From positions 1 through 21,157 of the IMG/VR virus record IMGVR_UViG_3300042559_001357: a stretch of DNA of 21,157 bases; one strand, written 5' to 3'. The notes below the pieces were generated by a model. The model was not told the origin of the DNA, did not search any database, and saw only the letters and a program-made list of their open reading frames with translations. Positions 1,794 to 19,908 of the stretch are shown here, one piece after another; within the stretch, counting starts at the first letter, position 1, and every line of letters begins with the position of its first letter. Source of the stretch: a virus. The position numbers and the translations under genes are program-made.

Positions 1794-2000
1794 ATGACAG
1801 AAAACATCCCAACCTGGGAAAGAATAGGTTCAGGAGAAGGGCCTGCTCAGATTGCCTTCGCTTTGGTTTTAGATGGCATCGTTCAGCAAATTATGTCTAC
1901 AAATGTAGCTACAGCATCTCTTTTATTAGAAGGACCACAAATCATAAGATGTAAGGATGACGCTGAAGTTGGAATGACAGTTGAACAAGCTGCGCTCTAA
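1794..2000 (+). CDS. Small conserved phage protein, ALVLD type
   Basis: A 68-residue protein. The ATG at 1794 is chosen because GAGGAG at 1782-1787 lies six bases upstream; an open frame reaches further up but overlaps the previous gene without such a site. The core is IAFALVLDGIVQQIM at about residues 20-34, followed by SLLLEGPQIIRC. The same pattern (IALVLDNEVQDIL, then LMSNPVIVDIT) occurs in the gene at 2703, so the two are paralogues. Proteins of this form are frequent near structural genes in aquatic phages, but I know of no established function. It is followed by a larger partner at 2029, as its paralogue is by the gene at 2968, so the pair may act together. No signal peptide or membrane segment is seen. 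Confidence 0.85.
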   Translation: MTENIPTWERIGSGEGPAQIAFALVLDGIVQQIMSTNVATASLLLEGPQIIRCKDDAEVGMTVEQAAL

Positions 2001-2028: not shown

Positions 2029-2706
2029 TTGAGAATAATAAAGTTTATTCCGTTTGGCGGAAGGAAAAACCTTATGCCTCCATCTATATCAAAAATACCA
2101 CAATGGTGGAAAGATGGAGAAACAGTTATATCTGTTGGTACGCCAGGTTTAAAATCATGTGTTCCGTTCATGGAAATAATGAAGTCTGGATATACAATAA
2201 ATCTACCATTCGATATATTTGTTTCTAAAGGTGAAGACGGAAATGTAAGTTTAAAGTGGAATGCTCCAAATGAGGCTGGCTGGCCAAACTTTATTGAAGA
2301 AAGACCACCAGATCTTGGGAAAACAATTCCAAGACCAGCAGGACATCTTCCTAATGGATTTGTTTGGTCGTCACAATGGTCATGGAAAACTCCAAAAGGA
2401 TATAGTTCTATAGTAACTCATCCATTTAACAGATTTGATTTACCATTTACTACAGTCTCTGGAATAGTAGATTCGGATAAATTCCAAGGAAATGGAAACA
2501 TTCCGTTTTTTATGAAAGAAGATTTCCAGGGTGTAATTCCAGAAGGAACGCCTATAGCTCAGGTATTTCCTTTTAAAAGAAATAAGTGGAAGTCTTGGGT
2601 AGATGATTCTGTGGTAGAGTCTATTTATAAGAATCAAATAGCTAATTTAAGAGAGCCCAATGGCTCATATAAAAAGGCATTTTGGGTAAAAAAGGTCTAT
2701 GAATGA
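2029..2706 (+). CDS. Conserved phage protein with dUTPase-like motif order (paralogue 1)
   Basis: A 225-residue protein. A TTG at 2029 is taken as start because AGAGAAG (2019-2025) precedes it and because the conserved segment KFIPFGG lies before the first ATG (2074, itself preceded by AAGGA, an alternative start). In order it has PPSISKIPQWWKDGE (residues 16-30), SGYTINLPFDI (53-63), TPKGYSSIVTHPFNRFDLPF (121-140), SGIVDSDKF (144-152) and GTPIAQVFPFKR (173-184). The gene at 2968 repeats this order, and 3645 does so distantly. The layout resembles the dUTPase/dCTP-deaminase fold: GYDL-like, GxVDxD and G-x-x-IAQ motifs in the right order. The RSS phosphate-binding motif is missing, so enzyme activity is doubtful. 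It is known to me only as a conserved marine phage family of unknown function. The stop overlaps the next start (ATGA). Confidence 0.87.
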   Translation: MRIIKFIPFGGRKNLMPPSISKIPQWWKDGETVISVGTPGLKSCVPFMEIMKSGYTINLPFDIFVSKGEDGNVSLKWNAPNEAGWPNFIEERPPDLGKTIPRPAGHLPNGFVWSSQWSWKTPKGYSSIVTHPFNRFDLPFTTVSGIVDSDKFQGNGNIPFFMKEDFQGVIPEGTPIAQVFPFKRNKWKSWVDDSVVESIYKNQIANLREPNGSYKKAFWVKKVYE

Positions 2707-3011
2707 TATTTAAAAAGAAAAATAGGATTGAAAAAATAAATCCAAAAACAGATAACTTTAAGGAGCCAAAACCTTATCACGAAGAAAAAAAAATATACTC
2801 AATTGCACTAGTTTTAGACAATGAAGTTCAAGATATTCTTAGAACAGAAGAAAGACTATGGGCGATGTTAATGAGTAATCCAGTAATAGTAGACATTACG
2901 GACAACGAGACAAGACCACAATTAAACTGGGAATACAACGAGGAAACAGGGGAGTTCACAAATCCAAATGCAATTCAACCCAACAACGAAGAAGATCAAA
3001 GCTCTATCTGA
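2703..3011 (+). CDS. Small conserved phage protein, ALVLD type (second copy)
   Basis: A 102-residue protein starting at the ATG that overlaps the upstream TGA by four bases (ATGA), which implies coupled translation. The first 30 residues are very basic (IFKKKNRIEKINPK). The core IALVLDNEVQDILRTEERLW spans about residues 34-53 and is followed by SNPVIVDITDN and a C-terminal LNWEYNEETGEFTNP. Short W-x-Y-(D/N)-x-x-T-G-x-F endings of this kind are frequent in small phage tail-associated proteins. It is the longer paralogue of the gene at 1794, with an added basic head and a tail of about 25 residues. It sits directly before a relative of the 2029 protein, so the small-large gene order occurs twice. 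Function unknown; a partner or chaperone role is only a guess. Confidence 0.85.
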   Translation: MIFKKKNRIEKINPKTDNFKEPKPYHEEKKIYSIALVLDNEVQDILRTEERLWAMLMSNPVIVDITDNETRPQLNWEYNEETGEFTNPNAIQPNNEEDQSSI

Positions 3012-3648
3012 AGATATTAGAATAGACTGGGAAAAACCTTCCCCAGCTTCAAAAGAAATACCTAAGTGGTTTAAAAAAATTGAAGCGGTAAATGATGAAA
3101 ATCATGACATGACAATAAAGAAGTGCATCCCTTTCTTGGACACACTTACAACTGGATATATGTTTAAAACATCTGCAGATGTAATGTATGACGAAGAATA
3201 TCATAGATTCTTAGACAATGGTGTATCTGAAACCGTTACACTTCATCCTACATTTCAAATAGAAAATATGGAGCTAGACAGCAATCTGCACCCACTTCCG
3301 TATAAGTGGATTAACAAGTTTATGTGGCAAACCCCTAAAGGATATAGCACCATGTTCTTGCACCCATTAAATAGAACAGACCTTCCATTCCAATCTATAT
3401 CTGGGATTGTAGATACAGATGACTTTCCTTTATCAGTACAGTTCCCGTTTTTTATGAAAAAGGGATTTTCTGGTTTAATACCAGCAGGAACTCCAATTAT
3501 TCAAGCCATACCTTTTAAAAGAGATGACTGGGATCTTAAGTTTCCAGATCAACAAGAATCTTACGAGTACGAAGGCTTTTGGAATTGGTTCCAGCCACCT
3601 ATGGCAAAGTACAAGAGACAATTCTGGAAGAGAAAGCGCTATCAGTGA
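2968..3648 (+). CDS. Conserved phage protein with dUTPase-like motif order (paralogue 2)
   Basis: A 226-residue protein clearly related to that at 2029. Matching segments are PSPASKEIPKWFKKIE (about residues 24-39), KCIPFLDTLTTGYMF (52-66), TPKGYSTMFLHPLNRTDLPF (122-141), SGIVDTDDF (145-153), FPFFMKK and GTPIIQAIPFKRDDW (174-188). The ATG at 2968 gives a 44-base overlap with the previous gene. No better canonical start lies between 2968 and the conserved region, so the true start is uncertain by about 15 residues. The C-terminus is basic and aromatic (FWKRKRYQ), like FWVKKVYE in paralogue 1. Either a beta-sandwich virion component or an inactive relative of nucleotide-binding dUTPase-fold proteins would fit. 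No RSS-type motif is seen. Confidence 0.87.
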   Translation: MQFNPTTKKIKALSEDIRIDWEKPSPASKEIPKWFKKIEAVNDENHDMTIKKCIPFLDTLTTGYMFKTSADVMYDEEYHRFLDNGVSETVTLHPTFQIENMELDSNLHPLPYKWINKFMWQTPKGYSTMFLHPLNRTDLPFQSISGIVDTDDFPLSVQFPFFMKKGFSGLIPAGTPIIQAIPFKRDDWDLKFPDQQESYEYEGFWNWFQPPMAKYKRQFWKRKRYQ

Positions 3649-4487
3649 AAGACAAGAAAACTCCATGGGATATTTTTAAATCTAAGGGTCAAGAAAAAGT
3701 ATCCTTAGAAGATGAAGTAAAAAAAGACTACATAAATGATGACGATTTCTTGGTACCAGAAAGAACTCTAGCATTTTACGCTACAAGAGATACCAGACAT
3801 AATTTTTCAGATGTAATGGAAAGTTTAATTGGGCACCCAAATAGAGATTGGTTTGCAGTCACAGCATTTTCTTTTTGTCTTCCATTAACAATAGCAAATC
3901 AATATGGATTTGTAGTAAAGTCAAATTGGGATATGGAAATAACTTGGGATGGTAAAGCAGAGTCTTCGCCTCAGATAAAATCAGATGGTTGGCAAAACCA
4001 TGATTCAATTCAGCCTATCATAGGAGATTTCGCAAATGGAATAATTAGCCTAGAAAATGCGTTTATAGTAAGAACCCCAAGAGATACGAATCTAATGATC
4101 ATGCAGCCGCCAAATTACTTTATACCAGGACTTCACACAATGAGTGCAGTAGTTGAAGCGGACAACCTTAGAAGAAATTTTACCTTCAACATAAAGGTTA
4201 CTGAGCCAAATAAGGTTATACATATTAAAAAGGGTGACTGGCTTGCGGCATTTATTCCAATACCAAGATTTTATGTAGATAGCTTTGAGATGAAAGACGC
4301 ATTTAAGCTCTTTGGCGATGAAGTAATAAAAAACGAGCTAGAGTCCATGCATAAACTTGGTTGGGAAAGGAATAATCAAGACTATGATAAAATTAATGGT
4401 TCAGGAAGAAGATATTTTAAGGGCAAGCATGTAAATGATACTCCTTATAGAAATCATCAGAAAAGGGCGGGGTTAAATGGAGAATAG
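3645..4487 (+). CDS. DUF6065-like phage protein
   Basis: The likely start is GTG at 3645, which overlaps the upstream stop as GTGA and gives 280 residues; an ATG at 3579 in frame would overlap the previous gene by 70 bases. The N-terminus has KTPWDIFKSKG (residues 5-15), a motif also found in the next gene. FSFCLPLTIANQYGF (75-89) followed by a W-rich stretch matches what I recall of the DUF6065 family (CLPLxIANxHGW). Later come FIVRTPRDTNLMIMQPPNYF (140-159), AVVEADNL (168-175), FNIKVTEP (181-188) and IKKGDWLAAFIPIPRF (194-209). The last segment is close to the dUTPase ending 'I-KKGD-R-IAQ-L'. Against 2029 and 2968 the same order of blocks can be matched, so all three may share a fold. Function unknown. 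Confidence 0.88.
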   Translation: MKDKKTPWDIFKSKGQEKVSLEDEVKKDYINDDDFLVPERTLAFYATRDTRHNFSDVMESLIGHPNRDWFAVTAFSFCLPLTIANQYGFVVKSNWDMEITWDGKAESSPQIKSDGWQNHDSIQPIIGDFANGIISLENAFIVRTPRDTNLMIMQPPNYFIPGLHTMSAVVEADNLRRNFTFNIKVTEPNKVIHIKKGDWLAAFIPIPRFYVDSFEMKDAFKLFGDEVIKNELESMHKLGWERNNQDYDKINGSGRRYFKGKHVNDTPYRNHQKRAGLNGE

Positions 4488-4746
4488 CGATATTCCTAAG
4501 TGGAAGAATGTCCCAGCTAGACCATGGGATTTGTTTAATAAGAAAATAGGAAGAGTCCCTTCTGAGGTTGCGGCTGAAAGATTTGAAATTTGCAAGGCTT
4601 GTCCTAGATATGTAAAATCTACACACCAATGCTTAGAGTGTGGATGTATTATGAATTTAAAAGTTAAGCTACCTAATGCCGAATGTCCTTTGGGTCATTG
4701 GGGCCAAGTAGACTTAGAAGAGAGTACAGACTTAGATAAGGAATAA
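4477..4746 (+). CDS. Small zinc-ribbon-like protein
   Basis: An 89-residue protein whose ATG lies 11 bases inside the end of the previous gene; the purine-rich AAAAGGGCGGGG lies just upstream. Residues 15-25 (RPWDLFNKKIG) repeat the PWDIF motif of the 3645 protein. The cysteines are C39-x2-C42, C52-x2-C55-x-C57 and C70, followed by H74 in NAECPLGHW. This spacing can make at least one four-ligand zinc site with extra ligands. Short proteins with 'ICxxCP ... CxxCGCxMxxKxKLPNAxCPxGxW' are common in T4-like and other aquatic phages; I know of no proven role. The very acidic tail (DLEESTDLDKE) suggests a protein rather than nucleic-acid partner. It is the last gene before the first TATAATTAA spacer. 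Confidence 0.9.
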   Translation: MENSDIPKWKNVPARPWDLFNKKIGRVPSEVAAERFEICKACPRYVKSTHQCLECGCIMNLKVKLPNAECPLGHWGQVDLEESTDLDKE

Positions 4747-4779: not shown

Positions 4780-7743
4780 ATGGCTACGTCATTCCCAACC
4801 TCAAAAGATACTCTGATTAATCCACAACCTACGGATTCACCAGAATTAGTATCACATGCCGCCCAACACGCTAATGCAAATGACGCAATTGAAGCGTTAG
4901 AGACCAAGGTTGGTGTAAACAACTCTGCCGACGCTACATCTCATGACTATAAGATCAGAGACCTTGAGTCTTATGCAATTAGCTATGAAACAGCTCAGGA
5001 TGCCGCAGGAGCTCTTCTAGGACACACTAACCATACAAACCTTATAGCTACCTATGATGATGTTTTAAATGAAGTTAGACTTTCAGTAGCCGCTCCAGAT
5101 GTTGCTAGAACAATTTATCAAACTGGACTAAATAATACTGGATCTACAATAGTAAAGGGTGTTCCAGTTTATGTTTCTGGATCAGTTGGGGCATCTGGAA
5201 AGATTAGAATTACTAAATCTTCTGCAGCTGCAGAGTCTACATCTACAAAAACATTTGGATTTACTGCAGAATCAATAGTTGATGGCGGAGAAGGTCAAGT
5301 CATTACAGAAGGACTTCTTACTGGCATAGATACTACTGGCGGAAATGATGGAGACCCAATCTGGCTTGGTTCAAGTGGAGGAACAGTATTATATGGAGTT
5401 GCTAATAAGCCAGTTGCGCCAAACCACCTAGTATTTCTTGGAATTGTTGTTCGTGGACAAAACGTAAACAATGGATCAATTTTTGTTAAAATTCAAAACG
5501 GATTTGAGCTTGATGAGATACATGATGTATTAATAAAGTCTCCAGCAAACAGTCAAGCACTTATATATGATTCAGCTTCAGGCCTGTGGAAGAATATAAG
5601 TATAAATGCTGGAACTGGCATAACAAAAACTTATACTTCCGTTCCACCTAATTATCGTGGAGATTATGATAATGGTGCATACTATGCTATAGATGATGTT
5701 GTTAGTATACCAGTTGGAAGCCCATACGGAATAGTAGGATCATACTTTATAAGAACAGGAAATCCAGGGAATCCAGGATATCCTCCAGAGCCAGGTGGAG
5801 CAACAAATGCTTCTTGGACTCTATTTAATTTTTCCTCAAATGTAACATTTGGAGTAGACACTTCAGTAATAGCAACTCAAACTTATGTAACTACAGCAAT
5901 ATCTAATTTGTTGGATGGCGCACCCGCCGCCTTAGATACTTTAAACGAGCTTGCTGCAGCAATAAATGACGACGCTTCTTATGCAGCAACAATAACAACT
6001 GCACTAGGGACAAAATTAAACTCAACAACTGCAGCCACCACTTATCTTGCACTTGCAGATACAGACGAAAGAATACAAGATGTAGTTGGAGGAATGGTTT
6101 CTTCAAATACTGAAGGCGGAATTGAAGTAACATATGATGACCCAACAGGTAAGATTAATTTTAGTGTTACCCCAGCGCTTATAACAGAGTTTGTAGAATC
6201 AGCACAAGATGCATCAGCTGCATTATTAAATCACTCAGATCATAATAAAATAACAGCTACATATAATGACGAAACAAATAAAGTAATATTAAATGTAGAT
6301 GAGCCAATTAAGGTTAGTGTTTCTGCTCCAGCAAACCCATTAAATGGAGATAGCTGGTTTGATCACCAGACTGGAGTTCTTTATGTTTACGATGGCTCAT
6401 ACTGGATTGAAGTATCAGGCGGAACTGGCTTTACAGCTAGTGGTATAAATGACTTGCCAGATAGTATTGGCTATCTAGAAGGCGTCACAGGTAACGTTCA
6501 AACACAATTAAATGCAAAAGCTCCATTGGCTTCTCCAGCTTTAACTGGCACACCAACTTCTACAACTGCTTCTGTAGACACAAATACTACACAGATAGCA
6601 ACTACAGCATATGTAATGGGTCAAGGATATGCTAAGTTGTCAGGACCGACATTTACTGGAACAGTTACATTGCCATCCACAACTTCTATAGGAACAATAA
6701 CATCAGCGGAGCTAGGATATGTTGATGGAGTAACCTCATCAATTCAAACACAAATAAATACTAAGTCTCCTTCTGTTTCTCCAACTTTTACAGGAAACGT
6801 AGTTCTTCCCTCTACAACATCAATTGGAAATGTTTCAGATATAGAGATTGGGTATTTAGATGGAGTAACATCTTCTATCCAAACTCAAATAAATACAAAA
6901 TTAGCAACTGCATCTTTTAGCTATGTAAATATGGTAAAGGCTACTTATGCAAATGTTGGCTCACTTCCTGCCGCTGCTTCAAATACTGGAAAGGTTATGT
7001 ATGTAACTGCTGACGGATATATGTATTATTCAACAGGAGCAACTTGGGTAAAGATTGCAAAATTTAACGATACAACAGCTTTAACATATAATATTAATGC
7101 GCTTACAGATGTTGATACTGGAACCGTTGCCCCATTAGTAAATCAAGTATTAGCATGGAATGGGTCTCAGTGGGTTCCAGCAAATCAGAATTCAGCAACC
7201 CCATCAATAACATTAGATGACATTACAAATGTTGATTTTTCTGTTCCTCCTGAAACTGATGATGTTCTTACATATAATGGGTCAGAATGGGTTGCAGCTG
7301 CTGGAGGAAATTCAGTTGTAGAAATACCAGCCTTTGCAGATTTAACAGATATATTCCAAACAGCAGACATGATTGCTTATCCAGCAATAACAAGGCTAAA
7401 CGTTACAGCAGCGGGTACGTCTGGATATGTCTTTGGAGATCAATATAACAATACAGTAAATCCAACAGTTTATGCTATATCAGGAACAACAATTGCATTT
7501 AATTTAAATGTGCCAGGTCATCCATTTTTAATTCAAACATCTGGCGGAGCTAACTCTAACGCAGGACTTGTGCATGTAGCTACAGATGGAACTGAAAGTG
7601 TTGGAGGAAATGCACAGGGTAAAACAGAAGGAACTCTTTATTGGCGCATACCATTCAATACTACTGGCAACTATAAATATCAATGCTCAATTCACGTTGG
7701 CATGAATGGAGTTATTACGATTAAGGATATTGCTACAATATGA
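4780..7743 (+). CDS. Multidomain tail fibre with C-terminal cupredoxin-like domain
   Basis: 987 residues. Residues 1-45 (FPTSKDTLINP ... SHAAQHANANDAIEALETKVG) are a fibre N-terminal module common in aquatic phages. At 70-103 and 473-507 are QDA-A-LL-H ... ITATYND modules. Residues 108-245 (VKGVPVYVSG, FGFTAESI, GLLTGIDT, GSIFVKIQNG) form a known tail domain. At 291-350 is a Y-RGDY-x-x-G-x-YY ... W segment like small chitin-binding modules. At 376-415 is GAPAALDTLNELAAAINDD, typical of fibres. Residues 555-705 hold three SIG..E.GY-DGVTSSIQTQINTK repeats, a likely trimeric stalk. The C-terminus (about 870-987) is cupredoxin-like with H914 (PGHPF), C969, H972 and M975 (CSIHVGM), spaced as in amicyanin. 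There is no Shine-Dalgarno site close to the ATG. It overlaps the next gene by four bases. Fibre role is well supported; copper binding is inference. Confidence 0.93.
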   Translation: MATSFPTSKDTLINPQPTDSPELVSHAAQHANANDAIEALETKVGVNNSADATSHDYKIRDLESYAISYETAQDAAGALLGHTNHTNLIATYDDVLNEVRLSVAAPDVARTIYQTGLNNTGSTIVKGVPVYVSGSVGASGKIRITKSSAAAESTSTKTFGFTAESIVDGGEGQVITEGLLTGIDTTGGNDGDPIWLGSSGGTVLYGVANKPVAPNHLVFLGIVVRGQNVNNGSIFVKIQNGFELDEIHDVLIKSPANSQALIYDSASGLWKNISINAGTGITKTYTSVPPNYRGDYDNGAYYAIDDVVSIPVGSPYGIVGSYFIRTGNPGNPGYPPEPGGATNASWTLFNFSSNVTFGVDTSVIATQTYVTTAISNLLDGAPAALDTLNELAAAINDDASYAATITTALGTKLNSTTAATTYLALADTDERIQDVVGGMVSSNTEGGIEVTYDDPTGKINFSVTPALITEFVESAQDASAALLNHSDHNKITATYNDETNKVILNVDEPIKVSVSAPANPLNGDSWFDHQTGVLYVYDGSYWIEVSGGTGFTASGINDLPDSIGYLEGVTGNVQTQLNAKAPLASPALTGTPTSTTASVDTNTTQIATTAYVMGQGYAKLSGPTFTGTVTLPSTTSIGTITSAELGYVDGVTSSIQTQINTKSPSVSPTFTGNVVLPSTTSIGNVSDIEIGYLDGVTSSIQTQINTKLATASFSYVNMVKATYANVGSLPAAASNTGKVMYVTADGYMYYSTGATWVKIAKFNDTTALTYNINALTDVDTGTVAPLVNQVLAWNGSQWVPANQNSATPSITLDDITNVDFSVPPETDDVLTYNGSEWVAAAGGNSVVEIPAFADLTDIFQTADMIAYPAITRLNVTAAGTSGYVFGDQYNNTVNPTVYAISGTTIAFNLNVPGHPFLIQTSGGANSNAGLVHVATDGTESVGGNAQGKTEGTLYWRIPFNTTGNYKYQCSIHVGMNGVITIKDIATI

Positions 7744-9847: not shown

Positions 9848-12800
9848 ATGGCAAGAAGACAAATAGAAGAAACATACTATACGTTTAACCCAGCAACAAA
9901 TACTATTGTTGTCCCTAGAATCATTCTTCAAGACCGCCTAATGCTTATTACCAATACCACTGCGGGTAAAGTAATTTATAATTTTGCAGATAACACAACA
10001 AATGCTTATAGTTTTACAGTAGATAACGAATTAGGATATGATCCAAAAACTACAATTGTATTAAAGTACAACTGTAATGGAATGAATGCTAATGACAAGT
10101 TGGCAATTATTGTTGATGAAGTTGCGGAGACAATGACATTTACAGAGCCTCTTCTAGACGCAGTAAATAAGCTTAGAGTAGCTCCACCACAATCACTTAT
10201 CGATACAGACTTTGAATACGGTGTACAGGGTTCTAAGTGGGAAGCCCTTGTATTGACAGCAAATTATCCTTCATTCTTCTCAAGAGCAACTGGAGGAAAC
10301 TCGTTTGACCTAGCCTCAATGGTTGGTGACGGAGCTTCTCCTAGATCATTAGTTACAGTTAACGTTATTTCACCAGCCACAGACCTTGCAGCTGGAGATG
10401 TTATCTCTGTACAGGATTCGCTAAACCCACTATCAGAAGGAACATACCCAATCCAATCAGTTTCTGCTGACGGATTCACATTCACATTTAGAGCATCTGG
10501 AGTAGTAAGTGGAAACCTAAGAGATGGAACACTAACTGCAGTAACAGGTGGAGGAATTTATGACAATGCTCATATTCCAGGAGGAAACGCAGCCGCAGGT
10601 TTAAATGGTTGGTCTGCATACTCTGATGAAGCAGGAGAGTCTACCATTACGGTTACAACAAGTAATCCACACGGATTGCTTCCAGGAACACCAATCCTTA
10701 TTGGAAACCAAAACCCTGCATGTCCAATTTCTGGTACATGGAGAATATTTAATGTTTCTACTCCAAACCAATTTAAGTTTAAAATGACTTCTTCAGTAAC
10801 AAACTCTTCAATGGTTACAGCTGGAGTAGGTTTGTATGCAAAGCCAAACGGATACGTCCAGCACAGACCATTTGACGGCGGAGTTATCTTGTCTACTACA
10901 GATAACGTATGTGGAGTTAGAGTAATTCGTCAAACACGTAGATACTTTAGATACCAGTCTGGTAAGGCTATGCAGTTCTCAACTGGTGTGAAGTTTACAC
11001 CAACATTTGATATTGATGGAATTACAGTTGCAGGAGTTCTTCCAGGAAGCCAAACAGTTACAGTTCAGACTATTCAAGACCACGGATTACAACCTGGAGC
11101 AAAGATTAAGATTGAAGGTGTTGTAACTGCTGGATCGTATAACCCATGGAATGGAAAATTCGTAGTCACTAATATTCTTGGTACAAACTCTTTCCAATAC
11201 AATATGGTTCTTACACAAGGACTTCAAGCAACAGATCAGTTCCCAGGCGGTATTGATGTAAAGGCAACAGTTTATGAGTGGGATGGAGCAGCAACACGTT
11301 GTGGTCTTTATAACGATCAGAACGGATTCTTCTTTGAGTATGACGGAACGTATCTATATGCTGTAAGAAGATTTACAAAGAAAGAATTATTTGGAAGACT
11401 ATCAGTAACACAAAATTCAAACATTGTTACTGGAATTGGAACAAGATTTAGAAAGCAGTTGTTGGTAGGAGAGCAAATTGTTATTAAGGGTGCTAACTAT
11501 GTAGTAGCTGAAATTTCAAGTGATACAAGAATTGCAATTACTCCAGCATATAAGGGTGCAACAAATGCAACCTCAAGATATTTGATCACTCAAGAAATTC
11601 GTGTTCCTCAAACAGAGTGGAGCATGGATAGAATGGACGGAACTGGTCCTAGCGGTTACACACTTGATACAACTCAAATGCAGATGGCCTATATCGACTA
11701 TACTTGGTATGGAGCAGGATTTATTAGATTTGGATTTAGAACTACTGAAGGTAACATTGCTTATTGCCATAAAATGCCTAATAACAATACCAATACAGAA
11801 GCATATATGCGTTCAGGTAACCTTCCAGCTAGATACGAAGCAATTAACTCACCATTCTTTAATACAAAGCTAAAGGCTGGTGGAAATGGAATTGTAGGAT
11901 CAGCACTGGCATCATCAGAAATTCTTATGTATGTAGATAGCATTAAGTTCTGGCCAACAGAAGGATGGTTAATTATCAAGGATAGCTCAGCCGTAGAACT
12001 TTGCTCTTATACAATTACAAATCCAGTATACAATCAAACAGCTCAGGGATATGCAGTTAATATTAACCGCAGACAGCCTATGACATCATTCTTTGGCGGA
12101 ACCCCATGGGCCCTAAGCGGAACAAATAACTCAATTACATTTACTCCAGATTCAACTATTACAAATGGCTCTGGAACATCTCAGGTATCAGTTCAAACAA
12201 TTACAAATACATGTGCTCCAGTTATTTCACACTGGGGATCATCAGTAATTATGGACGGAAGATTTGATGACGATAAGAACTTCATCTTCACCGCTGGTAT
12301 GCAGAGATTTATGAACATTGCAGGTTCTGGTACAGTAACAGCAAAGGTAACTTCAAAGTCAGCAACCGCTGGTACAGCAACTTTAACAACTGCAGCTAAC
12401 CACGGACTTCAAGCAGGATATCCAATAACAGTCTCTGACGTAAATACAAGAGCAGTTATTACTAACATAATTAGAACTTCAGCAACAACGCTATTGTTTA
12501 CTACTTCTGGAGCTCACAATTTCGTAGCAGGATATAACGTAACATTAGCAAATACAGTTCTTACAAATAGATCTGCAACTAACACAATAGTGCAAAATGC
12601 AATAGTATCGGTTGCTAATGGAGTTAGAACTATTGAGACAACTCCTGCAACAAACCAATTTACAATTACTTTGGCTGGAGCTTATGGATACATTGGTCAG
12701 GTACAGGGACCAACAGCGCTAGCAACTGAATCTTCAACATTCAATGGTATTTATACAGTATCAGCAGTTACAGCAAATACAATTCAGTACAACATAACTC

Positions 12801-13411
12801 ACTCAGGTACCGTTCCAGCCTCTATCGTAACTCCTAACGGAAGCGTTCAGCAGTCCTTCGGTTCTGCAGCGGTCCCAAGACCCTTGATTTCAATCAGAAT
12901 TGCACCTTCTGCAGATAACGGAATTGGAAGAAACTACGGTATTCGTGAAGTTATCAATACAATGCAGCTGCAGCTTTCAGAACTAGGAATCTTGGCTCAA
13001 GGAACATTCCTTATTCAGGGTCTCTATAACGTAGCTAAGTTCCCAACTGGAGTAAACATTCCATCAGATTGGGAAATTAAGAGAGTCCCAGGTGGATCAC
13101 TTGCACAGGTAATTTACCATGATGGAACTGGAGAAATTGGTTCAACCGTAACAACACCTATTACTACAGTGCAAGGCGGAGATCAGGCGTTTGCTTTCTA
13201 CGTATCTGGTACTGCTACAGACTACAATACAACAACATTCAACCTTTCAAAGGTTAGAGATCTTGGAACATCTATTCTTTCTGGAAATGGTAACTCTACC
13301 GCTCCAGGATTCCCAAATGGTCCAGACATCCTAACAATCGTTGCAACTAACTTAGGTTTAACATCTTCAGATATTTCAGCTCGTCTTTCATGGACTGAAG
13401 CTCAGGCTTAA
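9848..13411 (+). CDS. Large virion structural protein, cyanophage type
   Basis: 1187 residues, ribosome site GGGAGA at 9837-9842. The N-terminus (EETYYTFNPATNTIVV ... RLMLITNTTAGKVIYNF) and the segment PPQSLIDTDFEYGVQGSKWE (about 115-135) match, from memory, large structural proteins of T4-like marine cyanophages. The region MDRMDGTGPSGYTLDTTQMQ to MRSGNLPARYE (about 593-665) is another hallmark of that family (IDYTWYGAGFIRFGFR, CHKMPNNNTNTEAYM). Between and after are several 'N/P-HGL-x-x-G-x-x-I' units (PHGLLPGTPILIG, DHGLQPGAKIKIEG, NHGLQAGYPITVS, AHNFVAGYNVTL), each followed by a strand ending in F/Y-x-x-M or similar; these look like tandem small beta domains. There are no membrane segments. 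I infer a long, repeated-domain protein of the tail or baseplate that anchors the fibres encoded around it; its exact place in the virion is not known. Confidence 0.92.
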   Translation: MARRQIEETYYTFNPATNTIVVPRIILQDRLMLITNTTAGKVIYNFADNTTNAYSFTVDNELGYDPKTTIVLKYNCNGMNANDKLAIIVDEVAETMTFTEPLLDAVNKLRVAPPQSLIDTDFEYGVQGSKWEALVLTANYPSFFSRATGGNSFDLASMVGDGASPRSLVTVNVISPATDLAAGDVISVQDSLNPLSEGTYPIQSVSADGFTFTFRASGVVSGNLRDGTLTAVTGGGIYDNAHIPGGNAAAGLNGWSAYSDEAGESTITVTTSNPHGLLPGTPILIGNQNPACPISGTWRIFNVSTPNQFKFKMTSSVTNSSMVTAGVGLYAKPNGYVQHRPFDGGVILSTTDNVCGVRVIRQTRRYFRYQSGKAMQFSTGVKFTPTFDIDGITVAGVLPGSQTVTVQTIQDHGLQPGAKIKIEGVVTAGSYNPWNGKFVVTNILGTNSFQYNMVLTQGLQATDQFPGGIDVKATVYEWDGAATRCGLYNDQNGFFFEYDGTYLYAVRRFTKKELFGRLSVTQNSNIVTGIGTRFRKQLLVGEQIVIKGANYVVAEISSDTRIAITPAYKGATNATSRYLITQEIRVPQTEWSMDRMDGTGPSGYTLDTTQMQMAYIDYTWYGAGFIRFGFRTTEGNIAYCHKMPNNNTNTEAYMRSGNLPARYEAINSPFFNTKLKAGGNGIVGSALASSEILMYVDSIKFWPTEGWLIIKDSSAVELCSYTITNPVYNQTAQGYAVNINRRQPMTSFFGGTPWALSGTNNSITFTPDSTITNGSGTSQVSVQTITNTCAPVISHWGSSVIMDGRFDDDKNFIFTAGMQRFMNIAGSGTVTAKVTSKSATAGTATLTTAANHGLQAGYPITVSDVNTRAVITNIIRTSATTLLFTTSGAHNFVAGYNVTLANTVLTNRSATNTIVQNAIVSVANGVRTIETTPATNQFTITLAGAYGYIGQVQGPTALATESSTFNGIYTVSAVTANTIQYNITHSGTVPASIVTPNGSVQQSFGSAAVPRPLISIRIAPSADNGIGRNYGIREVINTMQLQLSELGILAQGTFLIQGLYNVAKFPTGVNIPSDWEIKRVPGGSLAQVIYHDGTGEIGSTVTTPITTVQGGDQAFAFYVSGTATDYNTTTFNLSKVRDLGTSILSGNGNSTAPGFPNGPDILTIVATNLGLTSSDISARLSWTEAQA

Positions 13412-16115: not shown

Positions 16116-17618
16116 ATGGCAGTAGCAAATAGCACGATACAGCTAATCATTCCAGGTATTGATAAGCTTATTGCAGATAGCTTTACAACAACTCTAGCAT
16201 CTAATGCTACTGTTACTGCTATTCAAACAAATATTGCTAACGCTGGAAGCATTACTGATATTCAGAATGCATTATCTGCATTGACTACAGATATTGGCTC
16301 TCTGCCAAATAAAGAGCCTCTCCCATACTTTGCTACATGGTCTAATAGAGATAACGATCCAAGAGCAACTATTTACAATAGCGATATGCGTGAAGTTTAT
16401 AATGGTAAGCCAGATACAAATGCTGAAATGTGGTCAGCATGGACTGGAAACAACTATACAAACGGAAACATTGGTTCTAACGGTTGGACATCTAACTGGA
16501 TGGGATCAACATCATTTTACCAAGCAGATACTCACTGGTACTTTAAGGTAAGTGAAGGATACAATAATCCAGGTTTTGCAATGAATCCAGATGGACAAGA
16601 GTCGTGGATGCCTTTCTGGGGTGTCATTATTGGAAACACTGGAAAGAGACAAAAGATTTCATTGTATTCAAATGGCTCATCTTTGAGAGTTATGCCAAGA
16701 GGAGTACAAAACGGAGACCTTGAGAGAATTGATTTAAACTCTACTACCTATGCTACTTGGTTTGGCGGAACCGAGTACGGAATGAACTCTTATAACGAAA
16801 GAACAGGAACCCTTGTAGTAATAGAAGCAAAAGACGGATCTAATAACTACCGTCTTCATAGATGGATTAATACTGGAACAAACAGATCAATTAATCAATC
16901 AAACTTTAAAGCTGGAATGCTACACAGATTTGTGTCAGAAGCAAAGGCTGGAACAACTATTGGTGGAATAGCTTCTTATAACTTCTACGACTTCCAGTGG
17001 CAAGCATCTGCTTCTCAAAACTATAATGAGTCAAGATACCGTATGCGTATTGTAGTTGGAGATAATGGAATTATCGGTATGCAGAGATTTGTACCTTCAA
17101 ACATTACACACTATGCAACATATACTCCGTCTTCTCAAACATTAAATACATCATTCAATACCATATCAAATACAACTTCATATGGAATTGAGCAGGGTAA
17201 CAAATACGGAGCTAGACATAATATTACCTGGGATAACTACTGGGTAGCAGCATATAACGTATACTACTACTATGGATCTGGAATGAACGTATTCTTTATT
17301 GATACTAGAGACCCTAGAAACTACTTTACTGGTCAATATGCCTCAACAGATAATGGATGTGCACTTGTACCATTTGATAGAAATAAGTTTATGTGGTCAT
17401 ATCACGTATCTAACTCTGACGGAGATTCTGGTCAAAGATTGGCAATCGTAGATCTTGAAGGTCCAAAAGCATATGGCAGAACATTATCTGGTACAATTGC
17501 TAATGGAGCAAATATCGGTCTTGACAAGAACGTTATGAATGGTATATTCGATACAAAGTATACAAGCACAAACTATACACTACTATTGCCAGTCCAACGC
17601 TGGCCAAGAAATATTTAA
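16116..17618 (+). CDS. Large aromatic-rich adhesin-like protein (paralogue A)
   Basis: 500 residues. Residues 1-66 form a helical head/stalk ending LPNK. Residues 67-500 form a large beta domain rich in Trp, Tyr, Asn and Gly, closely related to the 18385 protein. Shared signatures in order: PLP-x-FAT, TIYNSDM/TIYDSEM, the MPRG stretch, LN-x-x-TYATW-x-GG-x-x-YGM, LVVIEAKD/LVLIEAKD with NNYR, FQWQ, ESRYRMRI, RFVPSNITHYAT, NTTSYG, NITWDN-W-x-A-Y, YYYYGSGM, DTRDPRN, NGCALVPF, and FDTKYTSTNY. PNK sits at residues 64-66 in both. This suggests a trimeric receptor-binding protein with a conserved mount and a variable surface. The catalytic potential of the D/E/R clusters (DTRDPRN) is unknown. The ribosome site is in a hairpin loop. 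The 17637 gene follows as a possible partner. Confidence 0.9.
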   Translation: MAVANSTIQLIIPGIDKLIADSFTTTLASNATVTAIQTNIANAGSITDIQNALSALTTDIGSLPNKEPLPYFATWSNRDNDPRATIYNSDMREVYNGKPDTNAEMWSAWTGNNYTNGNIGSNGWTSNWMGSTSFYQADTHWYFKVSEGYNNPGFAMNPDGQESWMPFWGVIIGNTGKRQKISLYSNGSSLRVMPRGVQNGDLERIDLNSTTYATWFGGTEYGMNSYNERTGTLVVIEAKDGSNNYRLHRWINTGTNRSINQSNFKAGMLHRFVSEAKAGTTIGGIASYNFYDFQWQASASQNYNESRYRMRIVVGDNGIIGMQRFVPSNITHYATYTPSSQTLNTSFNTISNTTSYGIEQGNKYGARHNITWDNYWVAAYNVYYYYGSGMNVFFIDTRDPRNYFTGQYASTDNGCALVPFDRNKFMWSYHVSNSDGDSGQRLAIVDLEGPKAYGRTLSGTIANGANIGLDKNVMNGIFDTKYTSTNYTLLLPVQRWPRNI

Positions 17619-18384: not shown

Positions 18385-19908
18385 ATGGCAATTTCAACTA
18401 GCAGTACATCAATAGACCTTCCTGGAATTGGAGCAACTATGGTGTCTAATTTAGACGCCGCTCTAAATGCTAGCCCAGTAATGCTAAATATTCTTTTAAA
18501 CTCAAATATCTCTTCAGGTCTTAATACACTTACAACAACAGTAAATACGCTTAGAACTGCAGTAACAGATCTGCCAAATAAATATCCACTTCCAACTTTT
18601 GCAACATACGCAAACTATAATAATACTCCAGGATGGACTATCTATGATAGTGAAATGCAACCAATTGGTGGAGCAAACGGATCAACAGACTTTGAAATTC
18701 AAGCTTCATATACTGGACAGAACTACACTACAAATAACTGGTCTTCAAACGGAGTAACAAATAGCTGGTCTGGAGCAACTCCAATGCACCAACAAGACGG
18801 CGACTGGTACTGTAACATTCCAGGAAGAGGCTTTGGTCCAGAAGGAATTTTTGCACGTAACCGTTCAACCATGAACTCCTACATGCCATATTTTGGAACA
18901 ATAATTGGAAATCGTGGTCTTCGTCAACAAATCTCAATTAGAAGTGCCGACGCTAACTTACAAATTATGCCAAGAGGCGCTTCAAACTATCTTGAAAACT
19001 TAAACTTAAACACAGCAACATATGCAACATGGGCTGGAGGAACAACATACGGAATGGTTTCTTATAACCAGAGACAACGCAAACTCGTACTTATTGAAGC
19101 TAAAGATGCTGCAAACAACTATAGAATGCATATCTGGAGAAATACTAACGTTGGAAGAGACTTAAACTCTGAGACACACGATGTAGGAACTCTACATCTA
19201 TTCTTATCAGAAGCAAAAACAGCTGGAACTCCAGCCGCTACAACAACTGGAGTTTACTACTACTACAATGATTTCCAATGGCAGGAAAATAGCTCACAGA
19301 GCTACACAGAGTCACGCTACAGAATGCGTATAACTGCTGGTGATAATGAATTTATTGGTTTATCAAGATTCGTTCCATCAAACATAACTCACTATGCAAC
19401 ATTCCTTCCTAATATTGCAGGAACATCTGGAACACTAACTACTAGAGGCGGAATTGGAAATACAACATCATATGGCTGGGATCAAGGAGTCGAGTACGGA
19501 ATTAGAAGCAATATAACCTGGGATAATAACTGGTTAGCTTCATACTCACCTTATTACTACTATGGCGCAGGAATGTGTGTAGTATTTAATGACACCAGAG
19601 ACCCACGCAACTTTTACTTTGGAAGATACACTCAGACAGGAAATGGCTGCCAGCTAGTACCATTTAACGAAGATAAGTTCTTGTTTAATGATTCAGCAGA
19701 AAACTCTGACGGTAACGTTGGAATGAGACTCTCTGTTGTAGATCTAGGCGGAATCTTTGAGTTTGGTAGAGATGCAACTACATCTGGAATTGCAAATGGT
19801 GCAACTATTAACTTAAGACCAACCACCATGCTGTATACATTTGATACTAGATATACATCAACTAACTATCCAGGACTTATGCAGCCAACATCTTGGACGA
19901 ATGGATAA
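18385..19908 (+). CDS. Large aromatic-rich adhesin-like protein (paralogue B)
   Basis: 507 residues with GAGGAG a few bases before the ATG. It has the same plan as the 16116 protein: head 1-66 with LPNK (P64-K66), then a large beta domain with TYATWAGGTTYGM, LVLIEAKDAANNYRM, FQWQENSSQSYTESRYRMRI, RFVPSNITHYATF, NTTSYGWDQG, NITWDNNWLASY, YYYYGAGM, DTRDPRNF, NGCQLVPF and FDTRYTSTNYPGL. Segments between these (e.g. about 95-150 and 250-270) differ strongly, as expected of exposed loops. The heads share little sequence except LPNK. It probably arose by gene duplication and may recognise a different receptor. The acidic small gene at 19912 follows three bases after the stop. Confidence 0.9.
   Translation: MAISTSSTSIDLPGIGATMVSNLDAALNASPVMLNILLNSNISSGLNTLTTTVNTLRTAVTDLPNKYPLPTFATYANYNNTPGWTIYDSEMQPIGGANGSTDFEIQASYTGQNYTTNNWSSNGVTNSWSGATPMHQQDGDWYCNIPGRGFGPEGIFARNRSTMNSYMPYFGTIIGNRGLRQQISIRSADANLQIMPRGASNYLENLNLNTATYATWAGGTTYGMVSYNQRQRKLVLIEAKDAANNYRMHIWRNTNVGRDLNSETHDVGTLHLFLSEAKTAGTPAATTTGVYYYYNDFQWQENSSQSYTESRYRMRITAGDNEFIGLSRFVPSNITHYATFLPNIAGTSGTLTTRGGIGNTTSYGWDQGVEYGIRSNITWDNNWLASYSPYYYYGAGMCVVFNDTRDPRNFYFGRYTQTGNGCQLVPFNEDKFLFNDSAENSDGNVGMRLSVVDLGGIFEFGRDATTSGIANGATINLRPTTMLYTFDTRYTSTNYPGLMQPTSWTNG

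Follow-up and report, generated by a model that had tools for sequence, protein, structure and literature searches.

Three tandem viral genes encode putative paralogues with a predicted dUTPase-type fold, from the uncharacterised families phrog_7084 and DUF6065

The closest described systems to the proteins reported here are the trimeric dUTPases and the dCTP deaminases, including the bifunctional DCD-DUTs, which likewise lack motif V, together with phage dUTPases that play a regulatory role, known from the dUTPase-Stl pair of the staphylococcal phages 80alpha and phi11 (PMC5593958). We analysed a virus record of 21,157 bases from an aquatic phage, hereafter the window, whose large structural protein (9848-13411) has its nearest relatives in Synechococcus T4-like phages, with about 39% identity, and which contains three tandem genes on the plus strand, hereafter the trio. 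Structure predictions and profile comparisons support that their products are paralogues and belong to a branch of the trimeric dUTPase/dCTP deaminase superfamily that is large but uncharacterised and is represented by phrog_7084 and DUF6065.

Protein 1 (2029-2706; 225 amino acids) has a TTG start, at a position where a relative in locus L004 has ATG, and belongs to the phrog_7084 family, as does protein 2 (2968-3648; 226 amino acids), an old paralogue of it. Protein 3 (3645-4487; 280 amino acids) belongs to DUF6065 (PF19541); its GTG start overlaps the stop codon of gene 2, suggesting translational coupling, and the ORF listing offers an alternative, longer TTG start at 3579. The motifs on which a dUTPase-like arrangement had originally been proposed are all present, and in the order claimed, in the three translations: GYTINLPFD (residues 54-62), TPKGYSSIVTHP (121-132), GIVDSD (145-150) and GTPIAQ (173-178) in protein 1; GYMFKTSAD, TPKGYSTMFLHP, GIVDTD and GTPIIQ in protein 2; and RTP, VVEADN, FNIKV and KKGDWLA in protein 3. 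These motifs are far beyond chance, because proteins 1 and 2 share 33% identity across 209 residues (E 1e-38), because of the matches to phrog_7084 and DUF6065, and because the profiles of the two families align with each other (see below). As judged from these comparisons, the trio genes are homologous to one another. Compared with orthologues showing 58-99% identity, they have dN/dS values of 0.02-0.25 wherever dS is defined.

Two of the genes are directly preceded by a gene for a small protein, one of 68 amino acids with an ALVLDGIVQ segment (1794-2000, plus strand) before protein 1 and the other of 102 amino acids with an ALVLDNEVQ segment (2703-3011, plus strand) before protein 2, which resemble each other (E 2e-4). 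At the other end there is a gene for a small CxxC protein of the zinc type (4477-4746, plus strand; phrog_13558, with a weak match to DUF6171), a recurrent neighbour of the family, and the array is followed by a tail-fibre gene (4780-7743, plus strand); no oxygenase gene lies beside the trio in the window. Elsewhere, the window encodes a protein rich in Cys, in which NPYNPC is repeated many times and which matches no PHROG (380-1783); downstream of the trio, a collagen-like protein (PF01391; 9218-9838); and two proteins of around 500 amino acids (16116-17618 and 18385-19908) that by eye are apparent paralogues, sharing SRYRMRI and RFVPSNITHYAT.

All three products match the phrog_7084 profile (3.2e-32, 1.4e-38 and 6.2e-10 for proteins 1, 2 and 3, respectively). 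Protein 3 also matches DUF6065 with 104.2 bits (E 1e-29; Pfam gathering cut-off, 26.6), a model that proteins 1 and 2 do not match individually, and a profile-profile comparison gives a 98% probability for the DUF6065 and phrog_7084 families, indicating that they are homologous. Both families lack an assigned function, as the original prediction had it: our literature searches found no paper naming DUF6065, and literature on tail fibres that reuse the dUTPase-type fold and on hydroxylase/collagen-like phage modules held nothing on the DUF6065/phrog_7084 family. Likewise, an NCBIfam search retrieved no family for the trio proteins. In a tree of 103 sequences, the genes in the protein 1 and protein 2 positions form two separate, well supported lineages and are, therefore, two old paralogues kept side by side, for which a joint function or a heteromer is plausible. 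A third and more divergent clade, phrog_17480, of which we saw 15 members, shares its arrays with the phrog_7084 genes (L162:3590-4294, L139:6654-7367 and L144:6606-7346, among others); it scores 33.4 against the protein 1 family profile, with a shuffled maximum of 20.7, and may represent a further branch of this superfamily.

Proteins 1 and 3 were modelled with AlphaFold2 from alignments of 103 and 40 relatives, respectively, with mean pLDDT values of 92.9 and 89.4. For each model, the best 50 Foldseek matches in the PDB were all dUTPases, plus a few dCTP deaminases in the case of protein 1 (probability 1.00; best E values of 4e-5 and 1e-4), so that dUTPases are the top matches of both proteins, in agreement with the fold originally proposed. 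A second structural aligner reached Z scores of up to 9.7 and 10.0 across the domain, and its rows included alignments of 116-119 residues at 2.6-3.0 Å, for instance one of 119 residues at 2.6 Å. TM-scores were moderate, about 0.3-0.4 by query and 0.4-0.7 by target, as expected if the modelled proteins are diverged and enlarged relatives of dUTPases. In a library of viral structures, the named matches were mostly dUTPases or dUTPase-containing polyproteins, ranked behind uncharacterised phage proteins. Protein 2 is linked to the fold through its 33% identity to the modelled protein 1. We regard a dUTPase-type fold as well supported and highly probable for the trio.

Sequence profiles point in the same direction for proteins 1 and 2. 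We compared the families with an alignment of 26 dUTPases, 25 of which came from genomes and were found with PF00692; the other row is a presumed E. coli dUTPase sequence. The family of proteins 1 and 2 scored 34.2 against the dUTPase profile, above all of 60 block-shuffled controls (mean 16.0, maximum 22.0), and the similarity was collinear across motifs II-IV, pairing GLIDSDYQG with GIVDSDKFQ at the catalytic motif III and QPGERIAQ with PEGTPIAQ at motif IV. The family of protein 3 scored 17.1, which is not significant, and its link to dUTPases thus rests on its model and on its homology to protein 1. None of the trio proteins matched PF00692 of Pfam at E values up to 1, a single-sequence search of the PDB with protein 1 gave weak matches that are probably due to chance, and searching PDB sequences with profiles from both family alignments retrieved none of significance. 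With ordinary HMM searches being negative, the relationship to dUTPases is therefore seen by structure and by profile-profile comparison only.

The conserved positions show which parts of a dUTPase have been kept, lost or replaced. The Asp of motif I (AG[YL]DL) is absent, position 56 being M, I, T or V in most of the 103 relatives of protein 1 and the equivalent position being V, A, L or I in the protein 3 family; the Arg-Ser of motif II is also absent, with H-P-[LF]-N-R in its place in the protein 1 type and P-P-N in DUF6065; and the glycine-rich C-terminal arm of motif V gives way to a different conserved arm. These losses indicate that the trio proteins are not canonical dUTPases. By contrast with what was lost, Asp148 of motif III is kept in 100 of 103 sequences of the protein 1/2 type and Gln178 of motif IV in 102 of 103. 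The Tyr that follows IDxD is not conserved (K, E, S, T or N at position 151, and Y in only 6 of 103). Protein 3 has Glu-Thr/Ala-Asp at the motif III position, with the Glu present in 36 of 40 viral and 19 of 19 bacterial DUF6065 sequences, and lacks the motif IV Gln (KKGDWLAA). This agrees with the original prediction that the RSS and GE signatures are missing and that proteins 1 and 2 retain the motif III Asp. Other positions are near-invariant: a Cys-x-Pro before motif I (Cys44 in 102 of 103), a Pro-x-Asn at the motif II site (Pro-Asn in DUF6065), and an aromatic/basic C-terminal arm with Tyr214 and Lys222, or Tyr257 and His271 in protein 3. Glu171, Cys78, Asn157, Tyr257 and His271 are common to viral and bacterial DUF6065 proteins. 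From this pattern, we infer that the replacement positions probably form a rebuilt ligand pocket.

Hundreds of viral contigs carry relatives, with 220 and 579 stretches confirmed, and so do Hafunaviridae of haloarchaea and the cyanophage S-RIM4. In the haloviruses inspected, the homologue adjoins a thymidylate synthase or ribonucleotide reductase gene and faces the tail genes, and in S-RIM4 nrdA/nrdB precede it, with a few small genes in between. Together with the neighbouring DNA polymerase genes, with the Asp of motif III and the Gln of motif IV in proteins 1 and 2, and with 0 Pfam dUTPase matches in 18 viral records carrying the family (16 of which are possible fragments), these locations could be read as a sign of active, highly divergent hydrolases or deaminases that take the place of the classical enzyme, with dUTP, dCTP or a related dNTP as substrate. 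We consider this very improbable, since motif V, the Asp of motif I and the Arg-Ser of motif II have all been lost, each virus has several divergent paralogues, and HF2 and HJTV-2 encode a separate dCTP deaminase. The coexistence of Dcd with the homologue in these two viruses also led us to reject the genes as a simple replacement for a missing Dcd.

Among phages, DUF6065 is usually paired with an oxygenase: for 28 of 43 non-redundant DUF6065 genes, the gene immediately in front codes for a prolyl-hydroxylase-type 2OG-Fe(II) enzyme whose HxD...H...R pattern is intact, whereas such oxygenases represent 7.5% of all neighbouring ORFs; the loci are related, and so the computed probability of this pairing is not to be taken literally. 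Tail fibres, GlcNAc-transferases (PF11397), GT2 and GT61 glycosyltransferases, carbamoyltransferases, Trp halogenases, Asp/Asn hydroxylases and sulfotransferases are also recurrent neighbours. At seven loci (L145, L146, L151, L154, L155, L157 and L167), several 2OG-Fe(II) oxygenase genes flank a DUF6065 and phrog_7084 pair on both sides, with nine PF13640 matches in the record of the last one (G011). Tryptophan halogenase genes (PF04820, E 1e-107) adjoin phrog_7084 genes in L090 (652-2265) and, from the same cluster, in L113 and L130.

The location of the trio, and of most of its phage relatives, among tail-fibre genes, and the host-range fibre region that the halovirus gene abuts, would suit a role in virion structure or assembly, with a trimeric dUTPase-type barrel acting as a fibre cap, adaptor or decoration within the tail-fibre module. 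This is nevertheless unlikely in view of the pairing of DUF6065 with oxygenase genes, of the position of HrrHF2_475, the HF2 homologue, which comes after the repeat IR6 in a region of class I repeats, a class linked to early-middle transcription, and of the existence of chromosomal DUF6065 genes that stand alone and share the conserved residues. Of 398 Pseudomonadota genomes, 24 (about 6%) have a DUF6065 match above the cut-off, and a chromosomal copy is found in Caulobacter vibrioides. In 20 chromosomal regions, the recurrent neighbours among those scanned are cellular genes, for aminoacyl-tRNA editing, thioredoxin, LON-domain and Trm112 proteins and for purine and arginine biosynthesis. Four further loci are on contigs of metagenome-assembled genomes; these were left out of the cellular-gene count because two of them have the oxygenase-DUF6065 pair typical of phages. 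An oppositely oriented aminoacyl-tRNA editing gene of the YbaK/ProX type adjoins DUF6065 in 8 of the 20 chromosomal regions, for instance in L241 and L248 (alphaproteobacterial type). That DUF6065 stands alone in these genomes argues against a purely virion-structural function.

A regulatory or nucleotide-sensing role was also considered, in which the proteins would bind a partner in a ligand-dependent manner with no need for catalysis, as in the staphylococcal dUTPase-Stl system. The fold has this precedent (PMC5593958), with Dut-Stl among the structural matches listed, and the altered motifs would suit binding without hydrolysis, but no conserved regulator gene lies beside the family, which has tailoring enzymes and fibres as its conserved neighbours, and no repressor appears among the recurrent neighbours examined of the chromosomal bacterial genes. 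We regard such a role as quite improbable. The original prediction, a dUTPase-related fold reused for a structural, regulatory or nucleotide-sensing role, is thus supported for the fold; the role part is not established, and its purely virion-structural version is weakened by the chromosomal DUF6065 genes and by the early/middle location in HF2.

The best-supported role, to which we give roughly an even chance, is that of a non-structural ligand-binding protein or enzyme of a tailoring module. The trio proteins would be trimers, possibly heteromers in this phage, whose subunit interfaces would hold a ligand pocket made up of the motif III acid, the replaced phosphate site (H-P-x-N-R, or P-P-N in protein 3), the Cys-x-Pro, and the conserved aromatic/basic C-terminal arm that replaces motif V. 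The ligand would be a nucleotide or a nucleotide-derived compound, and dUTPase activity is not expected. They would act as non-structural partners or enzymes in a module of 2OG-Fe(II) oxygenases, glycosyltransferases, carbamoyltransferases and halogenases that adjoins the tail-fibre genes. This role is supported by the enzyme-like conservation at pocket-equivalent positions, the stand-alone chromosomal DUF6065 genes, which sit among genes of housekeeping type, the oxygenase pairing and the recurrence of tailoring enzymes; it is weakened because the neighbours in haloviruses and S-RIM4 are nucleotide-metabolism genes instead of tailoring enzymes, because the trio has no adjoining oxygenase, and because a location among tail-fibre genes fits a structural protein too. 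A more specific version, which we hold to be possible although rather doubtful, is that DUF6065/phrog_7084 is a dUTPase fold that has come to serve as the working partner of oxygenases of the prolyl-hydroxylase type in the modification of fibre proteins or glycans; homo- or heterotrimers would then use the rebuilt pocket to carry out a new reaction or to carry the substrate, and Caulobacter-type bacteria would have a cellular version. Recognition of the fold turns an abundant family with no described function, which occurs on hundreds of viral contigs, in viruses of haloarchaea, in a cyanophage and in around 6% of the sampled Pseudomonadota genomes, into concrete questions, namely which ligand occupies the pocket and why the pairing with hydroxylases is so frequent; chromosomal copies, including that of C. 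vibrioides, make them open to experiment.

In comparison with known systems, the trio shares with trimeric dUTPases (PF00692; for instance, PDB 2xy3 from a B. subtilis prophage, 1duc from EIAV and 5y5p from white spot syndrome virus) a domain-wide predicted fold and the order of motifs, with G-h-h-D-x-D at motif III and G-x-x-I-A-Q at motif IV of proteins 1 and 2, and differs from them in having longer chains with extra segments, another C-terminal arm and no Pfam match. The dCTP deaminases and bifunctional DCD-DUTs (PF22769; PDB 2yzj, 2qlp and 4xjc) have the same predicted fold and are among the best 50 matches of protein 1, whereas the trio lacks the R-S-S of their motif II and does not match their Pfam family. 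The staphylococcal dUTPase-Stl regulators also have the predicted fold in common with the trio; unlike it, the staphylococcal phage dUTPases are active, with motifs I-V plus an extra motif VI, and have a partner of a kind that we did not see for the trio. Within the uncharacterised families, phrog_7084 is matched by all three proteins, by protein 3 over its core only (6e-10), and the bacterial members of DUF6065 have the conserved residues of protein 3, with proteins 1 and 2 linked to DUF6065 through the family profiles only.
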